Assembly: GCA_948467395.1 (NCBI GenBank)
Contig: CAOKDX010000001.1
Coordinates: 186,001 to 250,000, forward strand
Length of the DNA: 64,000 bases
From: an uncultured Clostridia bacterium
GTDB taxonomy: Bacteria; Bacillota; Clostridia; Lachnospirales; Lachnospiraceae
Direction of reading: 5' to 3'
Shown here: piece by piece, positions 50,181 through 64,000 of the stretch
How the letters are laid out: each line of letters begins with the position of its first letter
How positions within the stretch are numbered: position 1 is the stretch's first letter
Notes under the pieces: model-generated
What the model saw: only the letters and a program-made list of their open reading frames with translations
Database searches by the model: none
What the model was told of the DNA's origin: nothing
Program-made: the position numbers and the translations under genes

Positions 50181-52430
50181 ATGGCTTTACGATTGGAAGA
50201 TTACATGCAGTGGCCGGAGATTGAGGCGCTGGAATATGCAGAGTGCGGCAGACCGGAGACGGTATTGGGACCAAGGATGATCGGTAAGTCCCATGTACTT
50301 GTGACGGCATTGTTCAGGGATGCCGATTCGGTGAAGGTCAGGGTTCTTGACACAAAGAAGGAATACAGTATGGAGAAAATGGAGGAGATGGGCTATTATG
50401 CGGTACTGATTCCGGCGAAGAAGATCCCCGCCTATCATTTTCTTGTGAAGAGAGGCAAGAAACAGGAGGAGACGCCGGATCCCTACGCCATGGAATCTCA
50501 GATAGACGGCCTGGATATGAACCGGTTTAATAACGGGATCCACGATACCATTTACCAGAAGCTGGGTGCACATCCCATGACGCTGGAGGGGACGAAGGGA
50601 ACTTACTTTGCTGTCTGGGCTCCCAATGCCAGGGCAGTCAGTGTGGTGGGGGACTTCAATAACTGGGATCCCGGTACGCATCCCATGCGTTTTCTGCCGG
50701 ATGCCGGCATCTACGAGCTCTTTGTGCCGGGTATCGGAAAGGGAGAGATATATAAGTTCCGGCTTCTGGACAGCATCGGAAAGGAAGTGCTGAAGGCGGA
50801 TCCCTTTGCCAGCTATGCGGAGGTTCGCCCCAGGACGGCCAGTGTCGTATGGGACAGTGATTATACATGGGACGATAAGAAATGGATGGAGGCCCGCAGG
50901 AAGTGGAAGGTAAAGAAGGAGGCAATGCTGATCTATGAAGTATCCCTGGCGGGATTCTGCAAGCCGAAGGATACCGATGTGGAAGAAAAAGAGGCCTTCT
51001 GCAATTACCGGGATATTGCCCCGGTGCTGTCCCGGTACTGCGAAGAGATGGGGTATACCCATGTGGAGCTGATGCCGGTGATGGAGCATCCCTTTGACGG
51101 CTCCTGGGGGTATCAGGTGACGGGATATTATGCCCCCACGGCCCGTTATGGCACACCGGATGATTTCCGGTATTTCGTTGATTATATGCACCGCCACGGA
51201 ATCGGTGTGATTCTGGACTGGGTGCCGGCGCATTTCCCCAAGGATGAGCACGGGCTTGCCCGGTTCGACGGCACCTGCCTCTTTGAACATCTGGATCCGA
51301 GACAGGGCGAGCATCCGCACTGGGGGACGCTGATCTACAATTATGGCAGACCACAGGTAGTGAATTTCCTTGTTGCCAACGCACTCTACTGGCTGGAGGA
51401 ATTCCACGCGGATGGGCTCCGTATGGACGCCGTGGCGTCCATGCTCTATCTGGATTATGGCAAAAATGACGGCGAATGGGTGGCGAATATATATGGCGGC
51501 AATGAAAATCTGGAGGCGATCTCCTTTATCCAGAGAGTGAATGACAAGATCCATGCAAGGAAGGACGGCTCTCTGTCCATTGCGGAGGAATCCACTGCCT
51601 GGCCCCAGGTTACGGGCAGGACATCGGATGAGGGGCTGGGCTTCGATCTGAAATGGAATATGGGCTGGATGAACGATTATCTGGAATATATCCGCACCGA
51701 TCCCCTGTTCCGCAAGGGCAGGCACGGCATGCTGACATTTAGTATGGTCTATCAGTATTCCGAGGAATTTATCCTTGTCCTGAGCCATGATGAGGTGGTT
51801 CATATGAAGGGTTCCATGTACACGAAGATGCCGGGGGAGAGAAAGGATAAATTCGCCAGTCTTCGTCTGACCTATGGATATATGGCGGCGCATCCCGGCA
51901 AGCAGCTTCTGTTTATGGGGCAGGAGTTCGGTCAGGAACGGGAGTGGAGTGAAGCCAGGGAGCTGGACTGGAACCTGCTGGAGCCGGTGGATGGAGAGAT
52001 GTCGGAAAATGAGCGGCTCAGACAGTATGTGAGCATATTGAATTCTTTCTATCTGGCTCATCCTGCCATGTATGTGGATGACTCACGGCCCTCCGGCTTT
52101 GACTGGATCAGCACGCTGGATGCTGACAGGAGTGTTATTGCTTTTGTGAGGAAATGCAAGGATGAAACACTTTTGGTCCTCTGCAATTTTACGCCGGTGG
52201 CTTATGAGGATTTCTGTGTCGGTGTACCCTTTGCCGGCAAATATAAAGAGATTTTCAACAGTGATTCGGCAGAATATGGGGGAACCGGTTTTGTCAATCC
52301 AAGAGTGAAGCAGTCGAAGAAGATTAAATGCGACGGACGGCCCAATTCACTGGAATGTAAGCTGGCGCCATTGGCCATCCAGATATTCAGCTGTACCAGG
52401 ACAGCCCAGAAGGGCGGAAAGAAGAAGTGA
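50181..52430 (+). CDS. glgB: 1,4-alpha-glucan branching enzyme
   Basis: 749 residues. Introduces alpha-1,6 branches in glycogen. An N-terminal beta domain (about 1-110), a CBM48 domain (YFAVWAPNARAVSVVGDFNNWD), and the GH13 barrel with EMGYTHVELMPVMEHPFDGSWGYQ, DGLRMDAVASMLYLDY (nucleophile Asp), IAEESTAWP (acid Glu) and LSHDEVVH. No other glycogen genes are nearby, so it is not in a glg operon here. A TTGTATACAA palindrome lies just before the GGAGG site. Confidence 0.93.
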   Translation: MALRLEDYMQWPEIEALEYAECGRPETVLGPRMIGKSHVLVTALFRDADSVKVRVLDTKKEYSMEKMEEMGYYAVLIPAKKIPAYHFLVKRGKKQEETPDPYAMESQIDGLDMNRFNNGIHDTIYQKLGAHPMTLEGTKGTYFAVWAPNARAVSVVGDFNNWDPGTHPMRFLPDAGIYELFVPGIGKGEIYKFRLLDSIGKEVLKADPFASYAEVRPRTASVVWDSDYTWDDKKWMEARRKWKVKKEAMLIYEVSLAGFCKPKDTDVEEKEAFCNYRDIAPVLSRYCEEMGYTHVELMPVMEHPFDGSWGYQVTGYYAPTARYGTPDDFRYFVDYMHRHGIGVILDWVPAHFPKDEHGLARFDGTCLFEHLDPRQGEHPHWGTLIYNYGRPQVVNFLVANALYWLEEFHADGLRMDAVASMLYLDYGKNDGEWVANIYGGNENLEAISFIQRVNDKIHARKDGSLSIAEESTAWPQVTGRTSDEGLGFDLKWNMGWMNDYLEYIRTDPLFRKGRHGMLTFSMVYQYSEEFILVLSHDEVVHMKGSMYTKMPGERKDKFASLRLTYGYMAAHPGKQLLFMGQEFGQEREWSEARELDWNLLEPVDGEMSENERLRQYVSILNSFYLAHPAMYVDDSRPSGFDWISTLDADRSVIAFVRKCKDETLLVLCNFTPVAYEDFCVGVPFAGKYKEIFNSDSAEYGGTGFVNPRVKQSKKIKCDGRPNSLECKLAPLAIQIFSCTRTAQKGGKKK

Positions 52431-52470
52431 ATCACTAGAACATGACATTCTGGCATTTTTTCCAATACCC

Positions 52471-52498
52471 TTGACATAAAGTAGAAACTTGCTATAAT
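52471..52498 (+). promoter_or_regulatory. Promoter of the iscS-iscU-mnmA operon
   Basis: TTGACA (52471-52476), 16-base spacer, TATAAT (52493-52498). Confidence 0.8.
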
Positions 52499-52514
52499 GA
52501 ATATATTGAGTATA

Positions 52515-52533
52515 TCCTATCAGAATTATAGGA
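52515..52533 (+). promoter_or_regulatory. Palindromic operator-like site before iscS
   Basis: TCCTAT, seven bases, ATAGGA: an inverted repeat just after the expected transcription start and touching the GGAGG ribosome site. Rrf2-family regulators (IscR, CymR) use AT-rich dyads of this size near Fe-S and cysteine genes, so it could be such an operator. No regulator gene is in the window. Confidence 0.5.
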
Positions 52534-52549
52534 AATGGAGGTTTTATTC

Positions 52550-53734
52550 ATGAGTGAGTTTATATATCTGGATAATGCCGCTACTACGGCGGTAAGGCCA
52601 GAGGTTGTAGAATCGATGCTGCCATACTTTACTGAAGTTTACAGTAATCCCTCCAGCGTGTATCGTTTTGCCGGGAAGGCAAAAAAAGCCATGGAGGCTG
52701 CCAGGGAGCAGATTGCAGGTATTGTGGGTGCGAAGCCGTCAGAGATTTATTTCACCGGCGGGGGAAGTGAATCCGACAACTGGGCGCTCAAGGCAGTGGC
52801 AGAGAATTATAGAGAAAAAGGAAAACATATTATCACATCCAGGATTGAGCACCATGCCGTGCTCCACACCTGTGAATGGCTGGAGAAAAACGGATATGAG
52901 GTGACATATCTTGACGTGGACGAAAACGGTTTTATCTCTTTGGATGAGCTGGAGAAAGCCATACGCCCGGATACGATACTGATCACTATTATGTTTGCCA
53001 ATAATGAGATTGGAACCATCGAGCCGGTGAAGGAGATCGGTGGGATTGCCCGAAAGCACGGAGTGCTGTTTCACACGGATGCGGTGCAGGCATTTGCCCA
53101 TGTGCCGGTAGACGTGGAGGAGATGAATATCGATCTGCTCAGTGCAAGCGGACATAAGTTCTATGGCCCCAAGGGCATTGGATTTTTGTATATTAAAAGC
53201 GGTCTGAAGATCAGTGCACTGATTCACGGAGGCGCCCAGGAGCGCTCCCGCCGTGCCGGCACCCATAATGTGCCTGGTATCGTCGGTATGGCGAAGGCGG
53301 CAGAGCTGGCTGCTGCCGGCATGGAAGAAGCAATAAAGAAAGAGACGGAGATCCGGGATCATATGATCCGGCGGATAGAAGAAGAAATTCCTTTTGTCCG
53401 GGTGAACGGAGACCGGGAAAAGAGACTTCCTGGCAATGTCAATGTATGTTTTCGGTTTGTGGAGGGAGAGTCTCTGCTGATCATGCTGGATCAAAAGGGG
53501 ATCTGTGCTTCCAGCGGCTCCGCCTGTACGTCAGGCTCACTGGATCCGTCCCATGTGCTTCTGGCCATCGGGCTGCCTCATGAGATTGCCCATGGTTCCG
53601 TGCGGCTGACGCTTTCGGATACCACAACTAGGAAAGAGGCAGACTATGTGGTAGATAATCTCAAGGTCATTGTGGAGCGGATGCGCAGCATGTCTCCACT
53701 CTATGATGATTTTATAAAAAGAAAGGAAGACTGA
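52550..53734 (+). CDS. iscS: Cysteine desulfurase (NifS/IscS type)
   Basis: 394 residues. A PLP enzyme that takes sulfur from cysteine for Fe-S clusters and tRNA thiolation. IYLDNAATT begins the protein, SASGHKFYGPKGIGF has the PLP Lys, and GICASSGSACTSGS the persulfide Cys. ATG 52550 follows GGAGG by eight bases. Position before iscU and mnmA shows it serves both cluster assembly and 2-thiouridine formation. Confidence 0.94.
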   Translation: MSEFIYLDNAATTAVRPEVVESMLPYFTEVYSNPSSVYRFAGKAKKAMEAAREQIAGIVGAKPSEIYFTGGGSESDNWALKAVAENYREKGKHIITSRIEHHAVLHTCEWLEKNGYEVTYLDVDENGFISLDELEKAIRPDTILITIMFANNEIGTIEPVKEIGGIARKHGVLFHTDAVQAFAHVPVDVEEMNIDLLSASGHKFYGPKGIGFLYIKSGLKISALIHGGAQERSRRAGTHNVPGIVGMAKAAELAAAGMEEAIKKETEIRDHMIRRIEEEIPFVRVNGDREKRLPGNVNVCFRFVEGESLLIMLDQKGICASSGSACTSGSLDPSHVLLAIGLPHEIAHGSVRLTLSDTTTRKEADYVVDNLKVIVERMRSMSPLYDDFIKRKED

Positions 53735-53736
53735 AA

Positions 53737-54165
53737 ATGGAATATAGTGAAAAGGTGATGGATCATTTCTCTAATCCAAGAAACGTAGGGGAGATTGATG
53801 ATGCCAGCGGCGTAGGCACTGTGGGAAATGCCAAATGCGGCGATATTATGCGGATGTATCTGGATATAGATGAGGAGACGAAGATTATCAGGGACTGCAA
53901 ATTCAAAACCTTTGGCTGCGGCGCCGCTGTGGCCACAAGCAGTATGGCGACAGAGCTTGTAATTGGAAAGACGATATATGAGGCCCTCGAGGTTACGAAT
54001 AAGGCGGTAATGGAAGCACTGGACGGGCTGCCTCCCGTGAAGGTGCACTGTTCCCTGCTGGCAGAAGAAGCAATACATGCGGCACTCTGGGATTATGCGG
54101 AAAAGAACGGAATTCAGATTGAAGGGCTGGAAAAGCCGAAAGCAGATATCAATGATGAAGAATAA
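53737..54165 (+). CDS. iscU: Fe-S cluster assembly scaffold IscU/NifU
   Basis: 142 residues. The three cluster cysteines appear as NAKCGD, TFGCGAA and VHCS, with the conserved Asp after the first. NPRNVGEIDDASGVG is the family N-terminus. It starts two bases after iscS and overlaps mnmA by 14 bases. Confidence 0.95.
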   Translation: MEYSEKVMDHFSNPRNVGEIDDASGVGTVGNAKCGDIMRMYLDIDEETKIIRDCKFKTFGCGAAVATSSMATELVIGKTIYEALEVTNKAVMEALDGLPPVKVHCSLLAEEAIHAALWDYAEKNGIQIEGLEKPKADINDEE

Positions 54166-55231
54166 AACAGTAGTGGTAGGCATGTCAGGCGGGGTTGATT
54201 CCTCGGTGGCTGCCTGCCTTTTAAAATCACAGGGATACCAGGTGATCGGCGTCACGATGCAGATCTGGCAGGAAGAGAACCCCTCTTTGACAGCGGCAGA
54301 GGGAGGCTGCTGTGGTCTTCGTGCCGTGGAGGATGCCAGACGGGTGGCGCATCAGCTTGATATCCCATATTATGTTATGAATTTCCGCCGGGAATTCCAG
54401 CGGTATGTCATCGACTATTTCGTCAGGGAATACCGGGCCGGAAGAACCCCGAATCCCTGTATTGCCTGCAACCGTTATGTGAAATGGGAATCGCTGCTGC
54501 ACAAGAGCCTTGCCCTTGGTGCGGATTACATCGCCACCGGACATTATGCGAAGCTTCGGCAGATGCCGGACGGGCGCTATACCATCTGCCGCTCTGATTC
54601 ACTCCGCAAGGATCAGAGCTATGCCCTGTATAGTCTCACACAGGAACAGCTGGCTCATACATTATTTCCCCTGGGGGAATATGACAAAGAAGAGGTTCGG
54701 CAGATGGCAGAGCAGGCCGGATTGCAGGTGGCGCACAAGCCGGACAGTCAGGAGATATGTTTTGTCCCGGATGGAGATTATGCGTCCTTTCTTGAGAGAG
54801 AGTCAGGACAACAGGAACAGCGGGGGAATTTTGTGGATCTGGACGGCAGGGTGCTGGGGCAGCATAAGGGCATTGGCCATTACACCATTGGCCAGCGCAA
54901 AGGCCTTGGCATAGCACTGGGTGAGCCTGTCTTCGTAGTGAAGATCTGTCCCGATACGAGGGAAGTGGTTCTGGGGAAGGGAACCGATGTTTTTACGGAT
55001 CATCTCAGGGCGGAAGAGGCGAACTATATGGCGGCAGACCATTTTGAGGCGGGGCAGAGGGTGACAGCCAAGATCCGGTATAACCATGAGGGGGCGCCTG
55101 CCGTGATTCGTTCTGCGGGAGAAGATTTTTTTGAACTGGAATTTGAGGAGCCGGTGCGGGCCGTGACACCGGGACAGGCAGTGGTATTATATGATCAGGA
55201 AAATGTATTGGGAGGGGGGACGATAGTGTGA
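54152..55231 (+). CDS. mnmA: tRNA-specific 2-thiouridylase MnmA
   Basis: 359 residues. Makes 2-thiouridine at position 34 of Glu, Gln and Lys tRNAs. PP-loop GMSGGVDSSVAA, the Cys in TPNPCIACNRYVKW and the second Cys in SQEICFVPDGDY are intact. The C-terminal barrel ends with VVLYDQENVLGGGTIV. Two adjacent ATGs (54152, 54155) lie inside iscU; either may be used. Ends four bases from the convergent SDR gene. Confidence 0.94.
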   Translation: MMKNKTVVVGMSGGVDSSVAACLLKSQGYQVIGVTMQIWQEENPSLTAAEGGCCGLRAVEDARRVAHQLDIPYYVMNFRREFQRYVIDYFVREYRAGRTPNPCIACNRYVKWESLLHKSLALGADYIATGHYAKLRQMPDGRYTICRSDSLRKDQSYALYSLTQEQLAHTLFPLGEYDKEEVRQMAEQAGLQVAHKPDSQEICFVPDGDYASFLERESGQQEQRGNFVDLDGRVLGQHKGIGHYTIGQRKGLGIALGEPVFVVKICPDTREVVLGKGTDVFTDHLRAEEANYMAADHFEAGQRVTAKIRYNHEGAPAVIRSAGEDFFELEFEEPVRAVTPGQAVVLYDQENVLGGGTIV

Positions 55232-55235
55232 GATT

Positions 55236-55985
55236 TCACGAGATCTTCCATCCCCCGTCCACTCCGATAACCTGCCCGGTGAGATAGACGGGAGCCTTTG
55301 CCAGAAGGGCCGTCGTATCGGCGATTTCCTCAGCCGTTCCCATGCGCCCCGCGGGGATTTCCTCGCAGACAGCAAGGATCTCTTCCCGGGTGAAGCAGCT
55401 GTTCATAGCCGTGTCAATCATTCCGCAGGCGATGGCATTGACGGCGATGCCGCTGGGGGCAAGCTCTTTGGCAAGAGATCTGGTAAGGGCGTGAATTCCC
55501 CCCTTAGCGGCAGAATACGCAGCCTCACAGGAGGCGCCCACATTACCCCAGACAGAGGATATATTTATAATATGTCCTCTTTTTGCGTGAACCATAGAAG
55601 GGATTACAGAGCGGCACATATAGAAGGCAGAAGAAAGATTTGCATTCAGGATGCGAAACCATTCCTCCGCCTTCATATCCTGCAGGAGTCCAATGTGGGA
55701 GAGCCCGGCGCAGTTCACAAGAAGCTCCGGCGACCGGCCGGGGGTATCCCCTGCCTGGGTTTCGGGCAGGGCAAGCAGCGCCTCTGTTTGACCGGGATCG
55801 GTAAAATCAACCGTTCGGGTTGTGACACTGACATTTTCCTGCCGGCACAGGGAGCAGATATCTGACAGTCTGTCTGTCCGTCTGCCGCCGATGAGAAGCA
55901 GGTCATATCCCTCTTTCGCAAGTTTTAAGGCAATGGCGCTTCCAATGCCGCCGGAAGCGCCGGTTACAATGGCGTACTGGTTCAT
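55236..55985 (-). CDS. ymfI: SDR oxidoreductase, probable EF-P 5-aminopentanone reductase (YmfI-like)
   Basis: 249 residues. Rossmann TGASGGIG at 9-15, catalytic Ser144, Tyr157 and Lys161 (NISSVWGNVGASCEAAYSAAKG). The SSVWG-VGAS, CGMIDTAMN and EEIPAGRMGTAEEIA stretches match my recollection of YmfI, the reductase that completes the 5-aminopentanol modification of elongation factor P in Bacillus, better than FabG. It lacks efp or efp-modification neighbours; it is the last gene of the cyclase/FecR operon, 11 bases after FecR, with an AGGAG site. A generic 3-oxoacyl reductase remains possible. Confidence 0.75.
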   Translation of the reverse strand: MNQYAIVTGASGGIGSAIALKLAKEGYDLLLIGGRRTDRLSDICSLCRQENVSVTTRTVDFTDPGQTEALLALPETQAGDTPGRSPELLVNCAGLSHIGLLQDMKAEEWFRILNANLSSAFYMCRSVIPSMVHAKRGHIINISSVWGNVGASCEAAYSAAKGGIHALTRSLAKELAPSGIAVNAIACGMIDTAMNSCFTREEILAVCEEIPAGRMGTAEEIADTTALLAKAPVYLTGQVIGVDGGWKIS

Positions 55986-55996
55986 AATGCAGTCTC

Positions 55997-57124
55997 CTAT
56001 TCCGATATCCAGTTGATCACAGTATTATTGTGGATCTTCCGGGAAAAATCAAAATCCCACCTTCCCTTTGGAGAAGGCGTAAGCTTAGGCTTAGACGCAG
56101 CGTGGCCCTTCTCTATAGTCTGTACGCCGAAAACCTTTCCCTGATACCGGAATGTCACAGTATAATTTTTGTTCTCCTTTTTGTCTGTATCCTGTGCCGA
56201 AGGTGTCCCTGCATCTGTAGCAGTATCCATATCCGGTTCCGACTGTTCGGCAGGCTGGGTGTCAGATGGTTTCTGACGGGATGTATCCGGTTCCGGTGTG
56301 CTGTTCTGGCTGGAGGGTTCTTCGTTATCTGTCCCTTGTTCCGGCGCTGTCTCATCTTTATTCTCTGGTTCCTGGATCAGCTTCTGCAGTTCTTCCTTTG
56401 AGATACCGGTGATGGGAGCACCCTTTTCCATCAGATCCGACAGGAATTGGAGCGCCTGGGGCGGGAGATCGGAATAGGTAATGCCGGAGGGCTCCTTTAG
56501 GTAACGGACGCCCTCGGAGGAGCTCTGGATTACTGCCTCTTTTCCCGCCTCGATAAGAACCTCGTCCTGTTTGGTCCCGTCCGGAGCGATGGGGCGGAAT
56601 GCCACCGTGCCGTGGAAGGTGGATATTCGGGTCTGATTCTTTCCCGTCTTATCTACATATCCCTCTGCCCGGAAAATAGTTCCCCGTACCGCCATTATGG
56701 AATTGGGACTGTTTACCTCATAGGTGGATTCCCCGGTTAATTTATTCTCAATCTCATTTGTCACGGCGCCCTGTTCCAGACAGATTGAGGTTTTGGAGTC
56801 CTTATCCGAGCCCTCTGCCCGGATGGAAAGAACAGAATTTTCCTCTACCATAACATACTTGTCATCGTCCAGTTTGAGCCGCATGGAACTGTCCTGTCCA
56901 AGGCTCACCCTGTCCCCGGATTCGAGGTATAGATTTGTGGCCGCAGTAATGGTTCCGGTGCCCTCCCGCTGGATTTCCGCCCTTCCCTCTAACTGATAGA
57001 TCTGGATGGAGCGGTAGGAGTCTGTCTTCTTTGAAAGAAAACGGATGGTCATAATGACGCCCGCAGCCAGGACCATGAGTCCTAAGACGATAACGATCAT
57101 TTTCAAAGATTTCTTATTTTGCAT
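55997..57124 (-). CDS. Membrane-anchored FecR-domain protein
   Basis: 375 residues. One membrane segment (about 8-30), then the FecR domain (about 38-170): LEGRAEIQREGTGTITAATNLYLESGDRV, RLKLDDDKYVMVEENS, NSIMAVRGTIFRAEG. A Pro/Glu/Thr/Ser linker (about 255-315) leads to a small beta domain (about 320-375, VTFRYQGKVFGVQTIEKG) like an InlB B-repeat. So the FecR domain is outside the cell. In Gram-negative bacteria FecR links sensing to sigma factors; no sigma factor is here. Twelve bases after the secreted protein gene. Confidence 0.85.
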   Translation of the reverse strand: MQNKKSLKMIVIVLGLMVLAAGVIMTIRFLSKKTDSYRSIQIYQLEGRAEIQREGTGTITAATNLYLESGDRVSLGQDSSMRLKLDDDKYVMVEENSVLSIRAEGSDKDSKTSICLEQGAVTNEIENKLTGESTYEVNSPNSIMAVRGTIFRAEGYVDKTGKNQTRISTFHGTVAFRPIAPDGTKQDEVLIEAGKEAVIQSSSEGVRYLKEPSGITYSDLPPQALQFLSDLMEKGAPITGISKEELQKLIQEPENKDETAPEQGTDNEEPSSQNSTPEPDTSRQKPSDTQPAEQSEPDMDTATDAGTPSAQDTDKKENKNYTVTFRYQGKVFGVQTIEKGHAASKPKLTPSPKGRWDFDFSRKIHNNTVINWISE

Positions 57125-57136
57125 ATGGATCCCCCT

Positions 57137-59050
57137 CTACTGTTTCTGAAAGTCAAAAGCACTGTCCCCGGAAACGTAAAACACAGAATTGCCCTGATAT
57201 ACCGTATTGTCGCCTGCTACCCTCCACTTACCTGAACACAGCTTATAGGAAGTATCCGGTTTCAATAAATATTTTCCACTTATGGAAATTCCGTCCCGCA
57301 GCCAGAGCTCGTTTACATAAAACCGGCAGGAAACCACATTGCCAGCCCGGTCCGCCGCCTCGATGGTATGAGCCCGGTTATCTGCCGGGATGGTAAGTGT
57401 ATGGATGCTGCCGCTTACCTTTGCTGTCCTCCCGTCCACGGTTACCGTTTCCAGATAACTGTCCCGGATGGTAAAAGTGGAATTGCCGTAGAAGGTTTTG
57501 CCGTTTTCCATCTGGTCAATGGAGGGTGCCGTTGTGTCGATAACGATGCCGGTTGTTCCGGCATAGGAAACATTGCCGCTGTTATCCTCCGCTTTGGCAT
57601 AGAGGACACAGGCTTTATCCTCCGGCAGTAAGACCGGTTCCCTGTAATCTGTCCAGGAAGGAATTCTCCCTTCTACTTCCTGGGCGGTATAGACTTTATC
57701 TTCTGTAAAGAGATCCCGCTCCGCCAGATAATATTTTATGGATCCCTCCCGGACGCCGCTTCCGGAATCCGCTGCCGTGATGGTGAGACTTTTCTTTTCC
57801 CTGAAAAAGGTGCCAAAGGAGATGAGATGCACGAAATCCTTCCAGAAGGTATTCTGATCCAGAGAGATTGTGATTTCCGGCGGGGTTTCATCCCCGCTGA
57901 CGGCCATGTCCGTCTTTACGATACCGGTGACCTGAATGGCCTGATTTTCCCTGATGTGATACAGGGTGTATGTATACTTGCTGCCATCGATGCCTGAAGG
58001 CGTCAGGACAGTGTCATTTGCCGAGACTGAAAAATCCCTGGATGCTTCGTAGCCGTTATCCAGTGTCACCGTAAATATATAATTGCTGCCATAGTCCGCT
58101 GTAGACGACTGCTGTGATGCCGCTTGGTATCCGGTGCCTTCCGGCAGTGTGATGTGAAAGGTTGGTCTGCGGAATGTCACATATACGGTGACCGGACAGT
58201 CCGGCATGATAAAGCTGCGGTCCGTGACGGTGACCGGTGTGCCGCTGTCATCCTTTCTGGTAACGGTAATGGTATCCGTTTCATAGGTGTCCGCGGGTTC
58301 TGGTACTACCGTAATCTTCTGACCGAAAGCGGCAGAGGAGATCTCTTTCTCCCCAGCCAGGACACGGCAGTTTCCGTTCCCGGCAGAGGAGATCGTGATA
58401 TCATAACCGGGAACCTCCAAAGGGTCACTGATGGCAGAAACCCCGTCAGGGAAGGAGGCAACACAGAGATAAGTACCCGGTTCCCCGGTAAAGGTATCCG
58501 TTTCCTGACCGGAGACTCTGCCGGCCGGCATAAGTCTGGTGATATCGATCCGGGCCCAGAACGAGCGGCCGTCTGTTTCCGACATCCGGAGAGAAAATAA
58601 GCCGCCGGCAGTAATCTCCCGGGCATACTTCCCCTCTGCAGTACTGGCCAATGTATGTCCCGCGGCATCTTTTATCGTTCCGGTGAAACCGGCACAGGGA
58701 GTGACTGTTAGGAGATCGCCCTTTCTTGCCGGCACATCGATGTCAAGAGTGCCGTCCGGAGCCTCCCAGCCCTGTAACGAACTGTTATAGGTATTTCCAT
58801 CCGGAGCTGCTTCGATCTGGTGATCCTGCTTCTTTTCCGATACAACCTGGCATACGGCAGGCTCCGCTCTGTGCCATGCAAAATCAGCGCCCTCTTTATT
58901 CAGCCTTACAAAGGGCTCCTCTGCCGTGGGCTGATGGGTGATCTGGTACGGACTGGTTTCTGCCTGTACCGGTACTGCCTGTGGTGCGGAAATAATAGTG
59001 AGCATCGTTGCCAGCAGCAGGGCAGATAATTTTTTCACTCTTTTTCTCAT
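57137..59050 (-). CDS. Secreted Ig-like protein of the signalling operon
   Basis: 637 residues with a signal peptide (KKLSALLLATMLTIISAPQA, cleavage near VQAET). The body is beta-rich: an N-terminal part of about 200 residues, middle strands with ITISSAGNGNCRVLAGEK and YVTFRRPTFHITLPEG, and near 395-600 Ig-like modules (PPEITISLDQNT, IVIDTTAPSIDQMENGKTFYG). No anchor or enzyme motif. Its start overlaps the HD-GYP stop (ATGA), coupling a cytoplasmic signalling enzyme to an exported protein. Confidence 0.75.
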   Translation of the reverse strand: MRKRVKKLSALLLATMLTIISAPQAVPVQAETSPYQITHQPTAEEPFVRLNKEGADFAWHRAEPAVCQVVSEKKQDHQIEAAPDGNTYNSSLQGWEAPDGTLDIDVPARKGDLLTVTPCAGFTGTIKDAAGHTLASTAEGKYAREITAGGLFSLRMSETDGRSFWARIDITRLMPAGRVSGQETDTFTGEPGTYLCVASFPDGVSAISDPLEVPGYDITISSAGNGNCRVLAGEKEISSAAFGQKITVVPEPADTYETDTITVTRKDDSGTPVTVTDRSFIMPDCPVTVYVTFRRPTFHITLPEGTGYQAASQQSSTADYGSNYIFTVTLDNGYEASRDFSVSANDTVLTPSGIDGSKYTYTLYHIRENQAIQVTGIVKTDMAVSGDETPPEITISLDQNTFWKDFVHLISFGTFFREKKSLTITAADSGSGVREGSIKYYLAERDLFTEDKVYTAQEVEGRIPSWTDYREPVLLPEDKACVLYAKAEDNSGNVSYAGTTGIVIDTTAPSIDQMENGKTFYGNSTFTIRDSYLETVTVDGRTAKVSGSIHTLTIPADNRAHTIEAADRAGNVVSCRFYVNELWLRDGISISGKYLLKPDTSYKLCSGKWRVAGDNTVYQGNSVFYVSGDSAFDFQKQ

Positions 59051-60525
59051 TGCCTATATCCTCCTTTTGCTTTTAATGCTTCGGCCAGCCACTCTACAAG
59101 CTGCCGGTCGATTTTTCCCTCATCTGCCATGTCCCTCAGAATGTCCAGTGCTTTTTCCTCCGGGACCGGTTTCTTATAGGGGCGGTCCGTTGCCGTCAGC
59201 GCATCATAGATATCGGCAACTGTCAGAATTCTGGTCTCAAGATCCAGGTCGTCTTTGGCCAGATGATTCGGATAACCGCTTCCATCCAGAAATTCATGGT
59301 GGGAGGCGGCCCATTTTGGTATGTCGCTGAAATTTTTATTGAAACGGACCTTGTGTAGTATCTTTTTTGTCATTACCACGTGGTTTTCCATCTCCTTCCG
59401 CTCTTCCAGCGAGAGAGTTCCTCTTCGGATGCTTAGATGTTCAATCTCCTGGTCCGTGAGGTATTTCGTCACGGTTCCATCCTCTTTTTGATGGTATTTC
59501 TCTGCCAGGCGGCAGATATGCCTGTAATTTTCATCATCCAGGAAGGGCACGCCGTCGATTTTATGGATAAATGCCAGCTCCGATTCCAGGTCCTGCCGTT
59601 GATGCTCGTACTCCTCCCGGGAGATTCTTCCCCGGAGCATATCCGCCTCATACAGGGCATTCAGCAGCTCAAACCGCATATCTACCATCCGGATATCATG
59701 ATCCAGCCGTGTGGCGCGGTTCATAATACCGCGGGGGATCGTAATCTTCCCGATATCGTGCAGGAGTGCAGCCAGCTGAAGTTTTTCCTTCCGGTTCTGG
59801 TCAAAATATTCCGTGCTCTTACCGGCTCTGTACATCCTGGAGATGTAATCGGCCAGAAGTCCTGCGTACTTTTCTACATTTTCTGTATGAGAGGCATTGT
59901 ATGGCGTTCTCTCGTCTAACGCCATGGTCAGGGCCTCCACAAAGGAGTACAGCTGCGCCTTCATCTCCTCCATGTGCAGCAGGTTCGTGAGTTCAATCGC
60001 TGCCATGGAACCAAGGGATCGTATAATGATATCATATTGTTCATCGAAGGGGATGACGGCTCCGTTCCCGTCCATGGCATTGATCAGCTGCAGTACGCCG
60101 ATCAGTTTATTTTCATTGTCCTCCAATGGTATCACCAGCAGGGATTTCGTATGGTAACCGGTCAGGGCGTCGTATTTCCTTGGACCGGAGAAATCAAACC
60201 GGTCGCTGTTGTCCACATCCGGCACATTTACGATTTCCCGATGGATGGCTGCATAGGAGCATATATTCTGCTCGTTCATCGGCACCGGCGGCATATCGTC
60301 GATAAATTCACCGTCCGTGCCGCGGCTGATTCCCATGGAAAGGGTTTTCATAATCTTAAAGCTGAGGCAATTATTTTCATATAAGTACAGGGTGCTTGCG
60401 TCGCAGCTGGTGATCTCCATGGCGTTCTCCAGAATGGCGGCCAGAAGGAGATTACGGTTCTTTTCTGTTGACAGCCGGATGCCGATATTGAGTATCTTTT
60501 CAAAATCATTATATGTAAAATGCAT
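59047..60525 (-). CDS. GAF and HD-GYP domain protein (c-di-GMP phosphodiesterase)
   Basis: 492 residues, no membrane segment. GAF domain about 18-165 (CDASTLYLYENN, KSLLVIPLEDNENKLIGVLQLIN), then HD-GYP about 195-480. HTENVEKYAGLLADYI, LLHDIGKITIPRGIM near 253 and HHEFLDGSGYPNHL near 406 are intact, so hydrolysis of c-di-GMP to GMP is expected. About 100 residues are inserted between the HD and HHE motifs, including a coiled region. The ATG at 60525 follows AAGGAGACGG; the in-frame ATG at 60567 lies in the previous gene. Confidence 0.9.
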   Translation of the reverse strand: MHFTYNDFEKILNIGIRLSTEKNRNLLLAAILENAMEITSCDASTLYLYENNCLSFKIMKTLSMGISRGTDGEFIDDMPPVPMNEQNICSYAAIHREIVNVPDVDNSDRFDFSGPRKYDALTGYHTKSLLVIPLEDNENKLIGVLQLINAMDGNGAVIPFDEQYDIIIRSLGSMAAIELTNLLHMEEMKAQLYSFVEALTMALDERTPYNASHTENVEKYAGLLADYISRMYRAGKSTEYFDQNRKEKLQLAALLHDIGKITIPRGIMNRATRLDHDIRMVDMRFELLNALYEADMLRGRISREEYEHQRQDLESELAFIHKIDGVPFLDDENYRHICRLAEKYHQKEDGTVTKYLTDQEIEHLSIRRGTLSLEERKEMENHVVMTKKILHKVRFNKNFSDIPKWAASHHEFLDGSGYPNHLAKDDLDLETRILTVADIYDALTATDRPYKKPVPEEKALDILRDMADEGKIDRQLVEWLAEALKAKGGYRQ

Positions 60526-60541
60526 ATCCGTCTCCTTCTTA

Positions 60542-61330
60542 CTAGTAATTTTCAGGGTAGATTTCATGCTGTTTCATATAAACAAGGGATTTTCTCTGGG
60601 CCTCGCAGCCGCTTACTTCAATCAGTACGCCGGCGTCCACCTGATGCCGGCGGAGCAGCTGACTGAAATTCTGCCAGTCAATCTGACCGTCTCCCAGGGG
60701 CTGGTGAAGATCATTTTTCAGATCGTTATCATTGATATGTATATGGCGGATAGAGCCGGCCAGTGTTTCCACCCATTCCTTTCCGGTGGTGGCGGTAAGG
60801 GCGGCATGGGCATAATCCAGACAGATGCCAAAGTTTGGGACGTCCGTCATGTCCTCTGCCAGTCCGGCCAGGACATCCGGCGCCTCGTCAAACATGTTTT
60901 CCATATAAATCTGCTGTTCCGGGTATTCTCCCGCCAGCTCCCGGAAAAAGGCGGCATTCTGCTCCCTCCATTGTGTCAGGTAGTAATCCACCCGGAAACC
61001 CGCCAGCCTGCCCGTATGAAATACGACGCCCTTCAGACCCATCTGCCGGGCGATCTCCATGGACTGCCGGACCCGCAGAATGGATACTTCCCGGATCCGG
61101 GGATCGCTGCTGTGTATCGTTACATCCAGAAAGGCACCGTGCATGGTGTCTCTGGAAAAGTCGCTGCGGTACTTTCTGTAATAGGCGATGATTTCTTCCT
61201 GTTTCTTCGGATCATCCAGAACAGCCGGTGCATAGAAATCATTATATTCAAATGCGCAGCCATATTCTGCGGCGAGCCGGAGGGAATGCTCCAAATCCTG
61301 AATATCCGGAACTAAATATAATTGCTTCAT
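60542..61330 (-). CDS. TIM-barrel sugar phosphate isomerase/epimerase-like protein
   Basis: 262 residues of the AP-endonuclease 2 superfamily. Strand-end metal ligands can be seen: YNDFYAPA, THGAFLD-type MHGAFLDVTIHS, VVFHTGR, YMENMFDE (Glu), GICLDYAHA, HIHINDNDLKNDLHQPLGDGQIDW and VLIEVSG (Glu). The substrate is unknown. It begins immediately after the cyclase stop (TAAATG), with AAGGTG upstream, and is followed by HD-GYP at 16 bases. Confidence 0.85.
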   Translation of the reverse strand: MKQLYLVPDIQDLEHSLRLAAEYGCAFEYNDFYAPAVLDDPKKQEEIIAYYRKYRSDFSRDTMHGAFLDVTIHSSDPRIREVSILRVRQSMEIARQMGLKGVVFHTGRLAGFRVDYYLTQWREQNAAFFRELAGEYPEQQIYMENMFDEAPDVLAGLAEDMTDVPNFGICLDYAHAALTATTGKEWVETLAGSIRHIHINDNDLKNDLHQPLGDGQIDWQNFSQLLRRHQVDAGVLIEVSGCEAQRKSLVYMKQHEIYPENY

Positions 61331-63133
61331 TTATTTTATCACCTTATCTAATTGATATACAAAGACTCCGTTGCTCTTTCCTTTCAGCGGGATCTGTCCA
61401 ATGGACGTTACTTCCACCTGGTCCTTTACGGCTTCATAGACCTGCTGGCTGATCAGGATCTGACCCCTCTCTGCGCTGCTCTCAAGACGTGCGGCCGTGT
61501 TTACCGTATCCCCGATGGCTGTATAGTCCATACGGAAATCGCAGCCGATATTGCCCACGACGGCTTCTCCGCAGTGGATGCCGATTCCGAAAGCAACGCG
61601 TCTGCCGAAGCGCTGTTCCAGCTGATCGGCAATGGCGTCCGCTCCTGCCATCATGTCCCATGCGGTACATACCGCCCGGAAAATATAGTGATCCAGGTCG
61701 AAGGGGGCGTTGAACACAGCCATGGTGGCGTCTCCTACAAATTTATCCAGGGTGCCGCCATTATCAAAAATTGATCTGGTAGTAAGGCTGAGATATTCAT
61801 TGAGGATTTCTACAACCTCATCCGGACGAAGGCTTTCCGACATGGTGGTAAAGCCGCGGATATCCACAAACAATACGGCGATATGGCGGTTTTCTCCCCC
61901 CAGGACAAGTTCAAAATCCCTGTCCCTGCTGATCTTATCCACTACCTGGGGCGCCACATATTGTTTGAAAACATTCAGTACATGCCGCCGGCGGTGTATT
62001 TCCACAAGATATCCCTGGATAAGCCGGACAAGGTAAATAATGGCCAGGAGAACCGGAAGAAGGATAACGGGAGTGATGATCCCCCCGGTATATAGCAGCC
62101 TCGTCAGTACGATGTCCAGAACAACCAATACTGCCAGCAAAATGGAAGAGATCAGTATTTTAGTCTTTCTGGCAAGCAGGAAAAATATCCCGCAGATCAG
62201 TCCTCCCGCCAACGCATACAGGCCAGGGGACACGGGAAGCTGGGTCTTTCCGTCCAGCAGCGCCTCCACAATATTGGCGTGGATCTCCACCCCGTACATC
62301 TGACTGTTGTGGCTGATGGCAGGCGGATAGGCGTCCTGCATTCCCACGGCATAGGCCCCCACCAGTACAACGGCATTCTGAAAGATGCCGGGATCCACGG
62401 TTCCATCCAGTACATCTGCCATGGAGACAAGGTTATAGCCGCCGGGTTTCCCGGAATAGGAAAAATAGAAGCTGTTGTTTCTGCCATATGTATCGGGAAG
62501 CCGTGCTTCGCTGCCCTGGCTTTCCATATATTTTCTGTAGGCCTGGAAGGAAAGGCTGTACACCGGTTCCCCCTGATAGTCGATATATGCCATCGCCTGG
62601 CGCACACAGCCGTCCGGATCAATGGTAGTGTTGGCGAATCCGCAGGTGACGCTTTCCCGAAGGCTCTGGTAGGGGGTGATCACATTTTCTATGTGATAGG
62701 GATTGTATGTCACCGTTCCGTCCGCCGCTGTCTCCGGCTGTTCTTTAAAGGAGAAGCTCATGGCGGCAATTACATTCCCGGCCTTTTTGCACGCCTCGGC
62801 AAAATGCATGTCTCCGGCGTCGTCCACATTTTCGCTGTAGATCACATCGAACCCGATCACAGCCGGACGGGCTTTTTCATCCCGATTCAATGTCTCCACT
62901 AATTTTGCCGGGAGATCCCTGCTCCAGGTGTTTACCGGGCCGTATTTTCCCAGCGTCTTATCGTCAATCCCTATGATGTATATCTTCTTATCTGTGACGG
63001 TTTCCTTCTGGTTCAGCCAGTCAGAGATCCTGGCGTCCCATGAGCCCGCAGCCCCCAAATAGAGAAGGAGGGTTGAGGCTGTCATAATAATTATCGTAAC
63101 AACTGCCAGTTTTATATAGTCTTTTTTCTTCAT
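61331..63133 (-). CDS. CHASE2-domain adenylate cyclase (class III)
   Basis: 600 residues. One N-terminal membrane segment (about 9-28), an extracytoplasmic CHASE2 sensor domain (about 35-295: IGIDDKTLGKYGPVNTWSRDLPAKLV, VIGFDVIYSE, VVLVGAYAVGMQDAYPP), three membrane helices (about 297-365), and a class III cyclase domain (about 405-590). Metal aspartates are in LFVDIRGFT (near 422) and KFVGDATMAVF (near 464), with the adenine-type Lys two before FVG; MDYTAIGDTVNTAARLES has the Asp, Asn and Arg used for adenine recognition and transition-state binding. So cAMP synthesis is likely. First gene of a six-gene operon. Start follows GGGAGG. Confidence 0.92.
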   Translation of the reverse strand: MKKKDYIKLAVVTIIIMTASTLLLYLGAAGSWDARISDWLNQKETVTDKKIYIIGIDDKTLGKYGPVNTWSRDLPAKLVETLNRDEKARPAVIGFDVIYSENVDDAGDMHFAEACKKAGNVIAAMSFSFKEQPETAADGTVTYNPYHIENVITPYQSLRESVTCGFANTTIDPDGCVRQAMAYIDYQGEPVYSLSFQAYRKYMESQGSEARLPDTYGRNNSFYFSYSGKPGGYNLVSMADVLDGTVDPGIFQNAVVLVGAYAVGMQDAYPPAISHNSQMYGVEIHANIVEALLDGKTQLPVSPGLYALAGGLICGIFFLLARKTKILISSILLAVLVVLDIVLTRLLYTGGIITPVILLPVLLAIIYLVRLIQGYLVEIHRRRHVLNVFKQYVAPQVVDKISRDRDFELVLGGENRHIAVLFVDIRGFTTMSESLRPDEVVEILNEYLSLTTRSIFDNGGTLDKFVGDATMAVFNAPFDLDHYIFRAVCTAWDMMAGADAIADQLEQRFGRRVAFGIGIHCGEAVVGNIGCDFRMDYTAIGDTVNTAARLESSAERGQILISQQVYEAVKDQVEVTSIGQIPLKGKSNGVFVYQLDKVIK

Positions 63134-63178
63134 TTTTTCCTCCCATTACGCAAATTTGAAATGTATCTCCTGTTTGGC

Positions 63179-63229
63179 GGGTCAGAAGGTCAAAATGCAG
63201 GCATGAACGGCATTTTGACCTTCTGACCC
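63179..63229. repeat. Perfect 20-bp-stem inverted repeat in the cyclase leader
   Basis: The arm at 63179-63198 (GGGTCAGAAGG... to ATGC) is exactly complementary to 63210-63229, with an 11-base loop. Each arm contains GGTCA twice, eight bases apart. No T-tract follows on either strand. It lies between the putative cyclase promoter and its start codon. It could be a repetitive extragenic palindrome, a remnant of a mobile element, or an RNA or protein binding site. Confidence 0.85.
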
Positions 63230-63244
63230 TGGCATCACCATAAT

Positions 63245-63253
63245 ATTGTAGCA
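63245..63253 (-). promoter_or_regulatory. Possible extended -10 promoter of the cyclase operon
   Basis: On the minus strand TGCTACAAT, an extended -10, about 110 bases before the start; no good -35. If used, the transcript leader contains the 20-bp palindrome. Confidence 0.4.
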
Positions 63254-63268
63254 CAATTTGAAAAAAAG

Positions 63269-63297
63269 TTGTATATTTATTTGGTTTCTGCTATAAT
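63269..63297 (+). promoter_or_regulatory. Promoter of the rightmost gene
   Basis: TTGTAT (63269-63274), 17-base spacer, TATAAT (63292-63297). Confidence 0.7.
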
Positions 63298-63352
63298 AAC
63301 AAGAACGTTTGTAAATTTCCGACGATGCAGTTCGAATTAAGGGAGAATCATA

Positions 63353-64000
63353 ATGAAGAAAAAAAGCGTAGCAGGCATTATTGCCTTAAATTTTTTTAAG
63401 ACAATAGGGATTATTCTGCTGCTGGTCGCCGTGGGGGTGCTGAGCTATTATCTGACGATGCTCTATTTTGACCAGACAGCCCGGACAGAGAGGAGTACCA
63501 CGTATAAGCATGTGATAACCGTCAATACTGGTAATGAATCCTCCAATCTGATTTACAGTTATGATGCGAAATCAAGGAAGATAAAGGCCATGGTTCTGGA
63601 GCTGTTTGATTCTGTTTCGGGAAACATGAACTACATTACGATACCGGTAAATACACAGATCACCATTACGGCCAACACGTATGCAGATCTGATGAAGGTG
63701 AGCCAGAAGCTGCCCCAGGTATGCAGGATGACGGATATCAATGACTACTTTAAGGGAGACGTGGCCTATGAATACGGCATTCTTATCCTGCAGGAGGAAT
63801 TAAAGGCGGATATTGGATATTTTACGGCAATTTCCTCCGATAAATTCGGCTCGTATTTTGAGAATGCGGGATCCAAAAGCAAGCCGAAATATAAGCCGGC
63901 AAAGGCACTGCTGGACCGGGCTTCGGCATGCTCCTCCCCCGGGGATCTGGAGGATCTTATGGAGGAAGCATGGGAGGATCTTATTACCGATGTCACTCTC
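63353..64000 (+). CDS. Membrane-anchored, possibly LCP-like protein (3' end outside window)
   Basis: 216 codons are open to the window edge. A basic N-terminus and one membrane helix (about 18-38) are followed by an extracytoplasmic part. NLIYSYDAKSRKIKAMVLELFDS, YITIPVNTQITI, and AYEYGILILQEELKADIGYFTAISSDKF have the spacing of LytR-CpsA-Psr (LCP) domains, which attach polymers to the cell wall, but the conserved Arg/Asp residues of LCP phosphotransferases are not clear. Start follows AAGGGAGAATCATA. Divergent from the cyclase operon. Confidence 0.6.
   Translation, partial: MKKKSVAGIIALNFFKTIGIILLLVAVGVLSYYLTMLYFDQTARTERSTTYKHVITVNTGNESSNLIYSYDAKSRKIKAMVLELFDSVSGNMNYITIPVNTQITITANTYADLMKVSQKLPQVCRMTDINDYFKGDVAYEYGILILQEELKADIGYFTAISSDKFGSYFENAGSKSKPKYKPAKALLDRASACSSPGDLEDLMEEAWEDLITDVTL

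Follow-up and report, generated by a model that had tools for sequence, protein, structure and literature searches.

A conserved CHASE2-adenylyl cyclase operon in Lachnospiraceae, with a predicted new class of cAMP phosphodiesterase

Introduction

CHASE2 sensors and FecR-domain proteins have been described together in several bacterial systems: CHASE2 cyclase, phosphodiesterase, FecR and tetratricopeptide repeat (TPR) genes form a cluster in Campylobacterota (PMC9239204), a CHASE2 kinase accompanies a FecR/LysM protein in the biofilm-related BiofilmReg operon of Burkholderia (PMC5192318), and in Sinorhizobium meliloti the targets studied for the cyclic AMP (cAMP) regulator Clr include a FecR-domain protein (PMC5498481). 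Because of these precedents, we regard the sensor module as already known. Here we analyse a related locus in a stretch of 64,000 nucleotides (the window) from an uncultured bacterium of the Lachnospiraceae (contig CAOKDX010000001.1), where genes for a CHASE2 class III adenylyl cyclase, a TIM-barrel protein, a GAF-HD-GYP protein of cyclic di-GMP (c-di-GMP) metabolism, a secreted immunoglobulin-like protein, a FecR-domain protein and a short-chain dehydrogenase/reductase (SDR) follow one another. The window's family is Gram-positive, and no outer membrane is expected.

The locus resembles the Campylobacterota cluster, as the cited part of that report describes it, in that genes for a FecR-domain protein and a phosphodiesterase (here a predicted one) accompany the CHASE2 cyclase, and differs in having a TIM barrel in the phosphodiesterase slot and in the addition of the GAF-HD-GYP protein and the secreted partner (PMC9239204); Pfam found no TPR among the six window proteins, so the full Campylobacterota gene set is not present. 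As in BiofilmReg, CHASE2 stands beside an exported FecR protein, whereas the output described in the cited section is a two-component system and here would be cAMP and c-di-GMP (PMC5192318). The Clr/CyaD1-D2-K pathway of S. meliloti likewise includes a CHASE2 cyclase and a FecR-domain protein, but its receptor, in the passages cited, is the CRP-like Clr with FecR as a target, and none was seen here (PMC5498481). Among enzymes, the TIM-barrel protein shares with CbiR and endonuclease IV (EndoIV) the apurinic/apyrimidinic (AP) endonuclease 2 superfamily fold, conserved metal ligands and, by prediction, phosphodiester cleavage, but it falls below both NCBIfam cut-offs and is linked to cyclases, not to cobamide or repair genes (PMC7733943). 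Rv1339, YhfI and CpdA have the role that we propose for the TIM barrel and a signature also found in a metallo-beta-lactamase (MBL) protein of sister loci, but the cited passages assign them the MBL fold, which is unrelated to a TIM barrel (PMC9293780, PMC9117128). The GAF domains of PDE5, PDE2, PDE6, PDE10 and the cyclase 1ykd are similar in sequence to the window GAF, yet they are attached to cyclases or to cAMP/cGMP phosphodiesterases, and the window GAF to an HD-GYP domain.

Our searches of the open-access literature returned no report of a class III adenylyl cyclase in Lachnospiraceae, of a cAMP-binding GAF of an HD-GYP protein, of a CHASE2 cyclase with a phosphodiesterase in Firmicutes or of an AP endonuclease beside an adenylate cyclase, and, among the papers listed, none of a xylose isomerase-like TIM barrel acting as a cyclic nucleotide phosphodiesterase. 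Three papers in it contain both CHASE2 and FecR. That literature yielded neither a TIM barrel in the phosphodiesterase slot nor a GAF-HD-GYP receptor nor the C-terminal domain of the secreted partner, no search having been aimed at the last of these. Judged from sequence comparison, the locus without its SDR appears to be a genuine conserved operon, with a sensor of known kind and a predicted new class of phosphodiesterase. We give about an even chance to the reading that it encodes a self-contained envelope-sensing relay from cAMP to c-di-GMP, in which the TIM barrel would remove cAMP.

Conservation of the gene set

We sampled 200 genomes from the window's family, covering 199 genera, and a cyclase search at 1e-10 matched 43 of them. 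Three (G087, G096 and G187) match through a CHASE2 domain with another output or none, leaving 40 genomes with a class III catalytic domain, a frequency at odds with the statement of the initial annotation that class III cyclases are uncommon in Lachnospiraceae. Stretches were compared around 40 matches and later 18 more, plus two from outside the family. Named genomes were also scanned with the TIM alignment, which gave 452 places; the best 80 were kept, a selection weighted towards close relatives. Three of the 80 were already in the first sample, and the TIM open reading frame (ORF) of one locus (L115) was not recovered by the ORF caller. These 80 TIM loci contain a CHASE2-cyclase in 76 cases, an HD-GYP gene in 72, a FecR gene in 68, an SDR gene in three and an MBL gene in none. 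The TIM gene adjoins the cyclase in 67/80 and the HD-GYP gene in 70/80, and the order cyclase-TIM-HD-GYP is found in 64/80.

Gene order varies by lineage, and the recurring types are the CHASE2-cyclase, FecR, GAF-HD-GYP and a TIM-barrel or MBL-fold protein, joined in some loci by NHL propellers, GGDEF genes, or a cyclic nucleotide (cNMP)-binding PP2C gene with HATPase and STAS genes. The recurring unit is the CHASE2-adenylyl cyclase, the TIM barrel, the GAF-HD-GYP protein, the FecR protein and the secreted partner, and its clustering is beyond chance. The conserved neighbourhood proposed by the initial annotation is thereby borne out, as the same set recurs in the family and in the named genomes and is not an order unique to one genome. 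Distances of the cyclase, TIM and HD-GYP proteins correlate at 0.93-0.95 over 76 loci, a correlation that shared descent alone could produce.

The cyclase and its product

The window cyclase exceeds the Pfam cut-offs for both CHASE2 (146.6 bits) and Guanylate_cyc (93.8 bits). Residues D424, K464, D468, T538, N545 and R549, which we take to comprise the metal Asp pair, the Asn/Arg positions and the cAMP-type Lys/Thr pair, are kept in all 113 CHASE2-cyclase proteins (110 distinct, given the duplicate locus pairs L052/L075, L053/L141 and L055/L149). In these enzymes a Lys/Thr pair specifies cAMP, and Glu in place of the Lys specifies cGMP; since the pair is present in 113/113, the product is predicted to be cAMP. 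Glu replaces the substrate Lys in six of the seven class III cyclases that lack CHASE2 (L152, L153, L154, L155, L157, L166 and L167), and these Glu-type enzymes are predicted from their residues to make cGMP. A TIM barrel that served cyclases of both types might cleave cAMP and cGMP alike.

The TIM-barrel protein

All nine EndoIV-type metal ligands are kept in 102/102 TIM proteins, where we take the trinuclear metal site of EndoIV to consist of these nine; six of them align with E. coli EndoIV and the other three were assigned by order. The best NCBIfam matches of the TIM protein are phosphodiesterases, both below cut-off: CbiR at 51.2 bits (cut-off 105) and deoxyribonuclease IV at 40.3 bits (cut-off 244). 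No Pfam domain of the known cAMP phosphodiesterase classes I-III was found in it at E 0.1, where just AP_endonuc_2 matched.

Strong TIM matches occur in 23 of the 200 family genomes, and all 23 are among the 40 with a class III catalytic domain; the 40 divide into 23 with TIM, 15 with MBL, none with both and two with neither. In L152, L153 and L154 TIM also shares a gene run with cyclases without CHASE2, adjacent in L154 and two genes away in the other two loci, and a single protein of 765 residues in L070 combines TIM, GAF and HD-GYP. Beyond the family, matches at 1e-40 occur in 5/341 genomes of the class, two of them outside the family, and one of these two loci (L175) contains FecR, CHASE2-cyclase, TIM and cNMP-binding/DUF2225 genes. 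The MBL proteins that fill the same slot in sister loci bear the signature [T/S]HXHXDH in 11/11 cases, which is reported for Rv1339, YhfI and CpdA, of which YhfI prefers cAMP and cGMP, in the cited passages (PMC9293780, PMC9117128). Because its nine ligands are kept, it co-occurs with cyclases and its slot is shared with the MBL protein, we infer that the TIM barrel is a candidate for a new class of cAMP phosphodiesterase.

The other locus outside the family (L176:8049-9239) joins a CHASE2 part in frame to a C-terminal TIM part with no catalytic domain, beside a FecR gene, in what looks like an internal deletion.

The GAF-HD-GYP protein

Positions H227, H270, D271, H396, H423, H424, the GYP motif and D452, which we presume to be the catalytic positions of the HD-GYP domain, are conserved in 100% of 96 proteins (93 distinct). 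The observation in the initial annotation that both signalling enzymes keep their catalytic residues thus extends to 113/113 cyclases and 96/96 HD-GYP proteins at the positions checked, and these residues support its proposed outputs, cAMP and c-di-GMP, as the predicted ones. The window's genome has 11 GGDEF matches, which suggest that c-di-GMP is made.

The window GAF has 19 Protein Data Bank (PDB) matches at 0.01, of which 18, including several copies of one protein, are from PDE5, PDE2, PDE6, PDE10 or the cyclase 1ykd, and the remaining one is a GAF-HD-GYP; for a profile of nine GAFs, 20 of 21 PDB matches are cyclic-nucleotide GAFs. The sole control, the GAF of E. coli NorR, matched only the GAF-HD-GYP (0.009) and no cyclic-nucleotide GAF. 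Because its PDB matches are cyclic-nucleotide GAFs (18/19), the window GAF, which is the only PF01590 match in a genome 97.7% complete, is likely the cAMP receptor of the operon. A cNMP-binding gene is present in 0/89 distinct CHASE2-cyclase loci with HD-GYP versus 6/21 without (p 2.5e-5, uncorrected for relatedness, with several of the 21 ending at contig ends).

We considered and rejected a CRP-type receptor. The initial annotation had seen no cAMP receptor protein (CRP) in the window, which holds, and genome-wide there is one PF00027 match (L071, G000:C13:60947-61177), which lies in a long frame and has, by eye, a degenerate nucleotide-binding site without the phosphate-binding consensus. 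A protein carrying two GGDEF domains is encoded about 3.5 kb away from this match. Elsewhere, L152 has a GAF-GGDEF gene between its TIM and cyclase genes, and in three loci that lack HD-GYP (L057, L059 and L062) the CHASE2-cyclase is accompanied by genes for a cNMP-binding PP2C, a HATPase and STAS proteins, a set that is possibly a cAMP-driven partner switch.

The FecR protein and the secreted partner

The initial annotation paired CHASE2 with exported FecR and secreted proteins, a pairing that our analysis supports. FecR is present in 68/80 TIM loci, and both proteins have a hydrophobic N-terminal stretch. FecR genes adjoin CHASE2 also where the output is HD-GYP (L048, L165) or PP2C (L050). 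Since FecR is found beside non-cyclase CHASE2 proteins and TIM beside cyclases without CHASE2, we conclude that FecR tracks the sensor, whereas TIM tracks the cyclase.

At its C-terminus the secreted partner carries a module of about 52 residues. This module is present in 72 proteins (69 distinct) from 71 loci and never lies more than 16 residues from the end of the chain; its carriers have 193 to 1596 residues, and one of them is a FecR protein (L143). In the 200 family genomes the module has 11 matches in 10 genomes, all 10 with a CHASE2-cyclase, and judged by position none of the 11 is farther than about 6 kb from a CHASE2 gene or a fragment of one. Pfam gave no match to the module of the window, and stray weak matches for three members among 42. 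Of the candidates for the element that CHASE2 or FecR would recognise, we consider this C-terminal domain the strongest.

Among the CHASE2 proteins with other outputs, L048, L165 and L168 fuse CHASE2 straight to HD-GYP, with a FecR gene alongside in two of the three; L050:8851-10791 fuses it to a SpoIIE-type PP2C phosphatase beside a FecR protein of 1675 residues; and L049:7713-9962 encodes a CHASE2 protein that lacks any known output domain and whose C-terminal part is repetitive and Cys-rich.

Proposed relay and alternatives

In the proposed relay, CHASE2 would read the anchored FecR protein and the secreted partner outside the membrane, with the C-terminal domain as the candidate contact, and would set the activity of the class III cyclase, whose product, from its Lys/Thr pair, is probably cAMP. 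The GAF of the co-encoded HD-GYP protein may bind this cAMP and alter c-di-GMP hydrolysis, and the TIM barrel, as an EndoIV-like metal-dependent phosphodiesterase, would remove it, filling the slot that an MBL-type enzyme takes in sister lineages; such a relay would work without a CRP-type regulator. The envelope-sensing idea of the initial annotation stands as regards the conserved CHASE2, FecR and secreted set and the cAMP and c-di-GMP enzymes, and fails as regards the SDR, while the probable roles of the TIM barrel and the GAF, and the dedicated C-terminal domain, had been missed. The joint proposition, that the TIM barrel founds an EndoIV-like trinuclear-metal class of cyclic-mononucleotide phosphodiesterases, that the GAF-HD-GYP protein is a cAMP receptor and that CHASE2 reads its partner via the C-terminal domain, is more tentative, with chances that we put a little below even. 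If true, it would add one more class of cAMP phosphodiesterase, explain how class III cyclases can act in gut bacteria of the Lachnospiraceae type without a CRP-type receptor, and supply a candidate for the domain in contact with CHASE2, the signals of which are called not known in the cited passage of PMC5192318. Each proposed step involves one small protein or domain, suited to an assay of its own.

Several observations weigh against the relay. The MBL profile fits RNase Z better than YhfI, and it falls short of the cut-off of the cyclic nucleotide-degrading phosphodiesterase family NF041851: 11/11 MBL proteins match that family below 0.001, and the L038 protein scores 48.8 bits against a cut-off of 400. 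On the cyclase tree, two changes suffice for the TIM/MBL split; the mutual exclusion is therefore largely a matter of inheritance, and we dropped the idea of many independent swaps. The threshold that defines the 23 strong-TIM genomes was chosen after the match list had been viewed; in four of the 23 (L156, L158, L159 and L160) TIM lies away from any cyclase, and seven weaker TIM-like matches sit in genomes without a cyclase. The GAF retains N163 and F174 of what we take as the reference NKFDE motif, yet has mostly Ala at its Lys position. CHASE2 stretches without a FecR gene exist (L049, L168 and the contig-end piece L169), and the C-terminal domain was not found in MBL-type loci.

Two alternatives give the TIM barrel another substrate. 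It might serve the HD-GYP protein and not the cyclase, hydrolysing pGpG or another c-di-GMP breakdown product, as its place beside HD-GYP in most TIM loci, the L070 fusion and an EndoIV-type site that would suit a dinucleotide suggest; but six stretches (L042, L047, L059, L060, L062 and L063) have TIM beside the cyclase and no HD-GYP, and the confinement of strong TIM matches to family genomes with class III cyclases also argues against this role, which we hold to be unlikely. That it is a sugar isomerase or epimerase tying metabolism to the operon seems more doubtful still: its Pfam family includes isomerases and epimerases and weak NCBIfam epimerase matches exist, but the full set of EndoIV-type ligands, the better if sub-cut-off matches to CbiR and deoxyribonuclease IV and the way TIM tracks cyclases speak against this.

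The proposed receptor and the extent of the unit also have rivals. The GAF might bind cGMP or another ligand, with the two messengers merely co-regulated, since its top PDB match is human PDE5, a cGMP enzyme, above the adenylate cyclase 1ykd, and a GAF ligand cannot be fixed by sequence; the cAMP-type Lys/Thr pair of the operon's own cyclase, and the restriction of known cNMP-binding genes to CHASE2-cyclase loci without HD-GYP, make us think this somewhat unlikely. A six-gene functional unit that includes the SDR, as initially annotated, is highly improbable, although the SDR lies on the same strand after an 11-base gap with its own ribosome-binding site, and co-transcription in this one genome is possible. 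We rejected its membership and regard it as a neighbour because it is rare near TIM loci (3/80), has moved in relatives and is independent of the cyclase. In one of the two nearest named relatives (L072) it follows FecR in convergent orientation, and in the other (L073) it lies immediately upstream of the cyclase; among congeners it occurs in 6/12 tested and the cyclase in 2/13 tested, and four genomes (G534, G536, G537 and G542) carry the SDR but not the cyclase. It also passes the equivalog cut-off of NCBIfam NF047420 (YmfI, elongation factor P (EF-P) 5-aminopentanone reductase), with 244.9 bits against 238. 

Locus layout

Features of the window locus, with window coordinates and the basis of each assignment
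Feature	Position	Strand	Basis
CHASE2 class III adenylyl cyclase, 600 aa	61331..63133	-	Pfam, residues, family sample; CHASE2 ~62198-63076, catalytic domain ~61352-61888
TIM-barrel protein, 262 aa, proposed metal-dependent cAMP phosphodiesterase	60542..61330	-	AP_endonuc_2, nine ligands, co-occurrence
GAF-HD-GYP c-di-GMP phosphodiesterase, 492 aa	59047..60525	-	Pfam, motif residues, start with ribosome-binding site
GAF domain, proposed cAMP receptor	59992..60450	-	PDB matches, NorR control, sole PF01590 match of genome
Secreted Ig-like partner, 637 aa, hydrophobic N-terminal stretch	57137..59050	-	ORF list, Pfam, hydropathy scan
Unannotated C-terminal domain of secreted partner, residues 585-637	57140..57298	-	Alignment, genome searches, Pfam blank
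FecR-domain protein, 375 aa, N-terminal membrane anchor	55997..57124	-	Pfam, hydropathy scan
SDR, YmfI-type EF-P 5-aminopentanone reductase; judged neighbour, not member	55236..55985	-	NCBIfam, neighbourhoods

The six ORFs lie on one strand, as initially annotated, with gaps of 0, 16, -4, 12 and 11 bases if the HD-GYP start is taken at 60525, which is preceded by the ribosome-binding site AGAAGGAG; the alternative start of the longest ORF, at 60567, has none by eye. Pfam E-values for the window proteins are 1.3e-42 (CHASE2), 1.2e-26 (Guanylate_cyc), 2.5e-26 (AP_endonuc_2), 1.2e-33 (HD_5), 1.2e-11 (GAF), 4.1e-10 (FecR) and 1.3e-49 (adh_short), and all Pfam matches of the secreted protein are below cut-off. 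In the cyclase, a hydropathy scan showed one hydrophobic stretch at residues 9-27 and several more between 303 and 369; the secreted and FecR proteins have one each, at the N-terminus.

Consensus scans, which alone decide nothing, gave 17 promoter-like sites against 9.9 expected, some inside the operon, and 11 terminator-like sites against 8.8 expected, and an Rfam search of 52000-64000 returned no match. A conserved leader hairpin was rejected, as any repeat of at least 11 bp precedes the cyclase in just 7/98 loci. In the window itself, the leader has at 63179-63229, 45 nt ahead of the cyclase start, a perfect inverted repeat of 20 bp around an 11-base loop; it is single-copy in the genome and folds at -40.3 kcal/mol (z -6.5).

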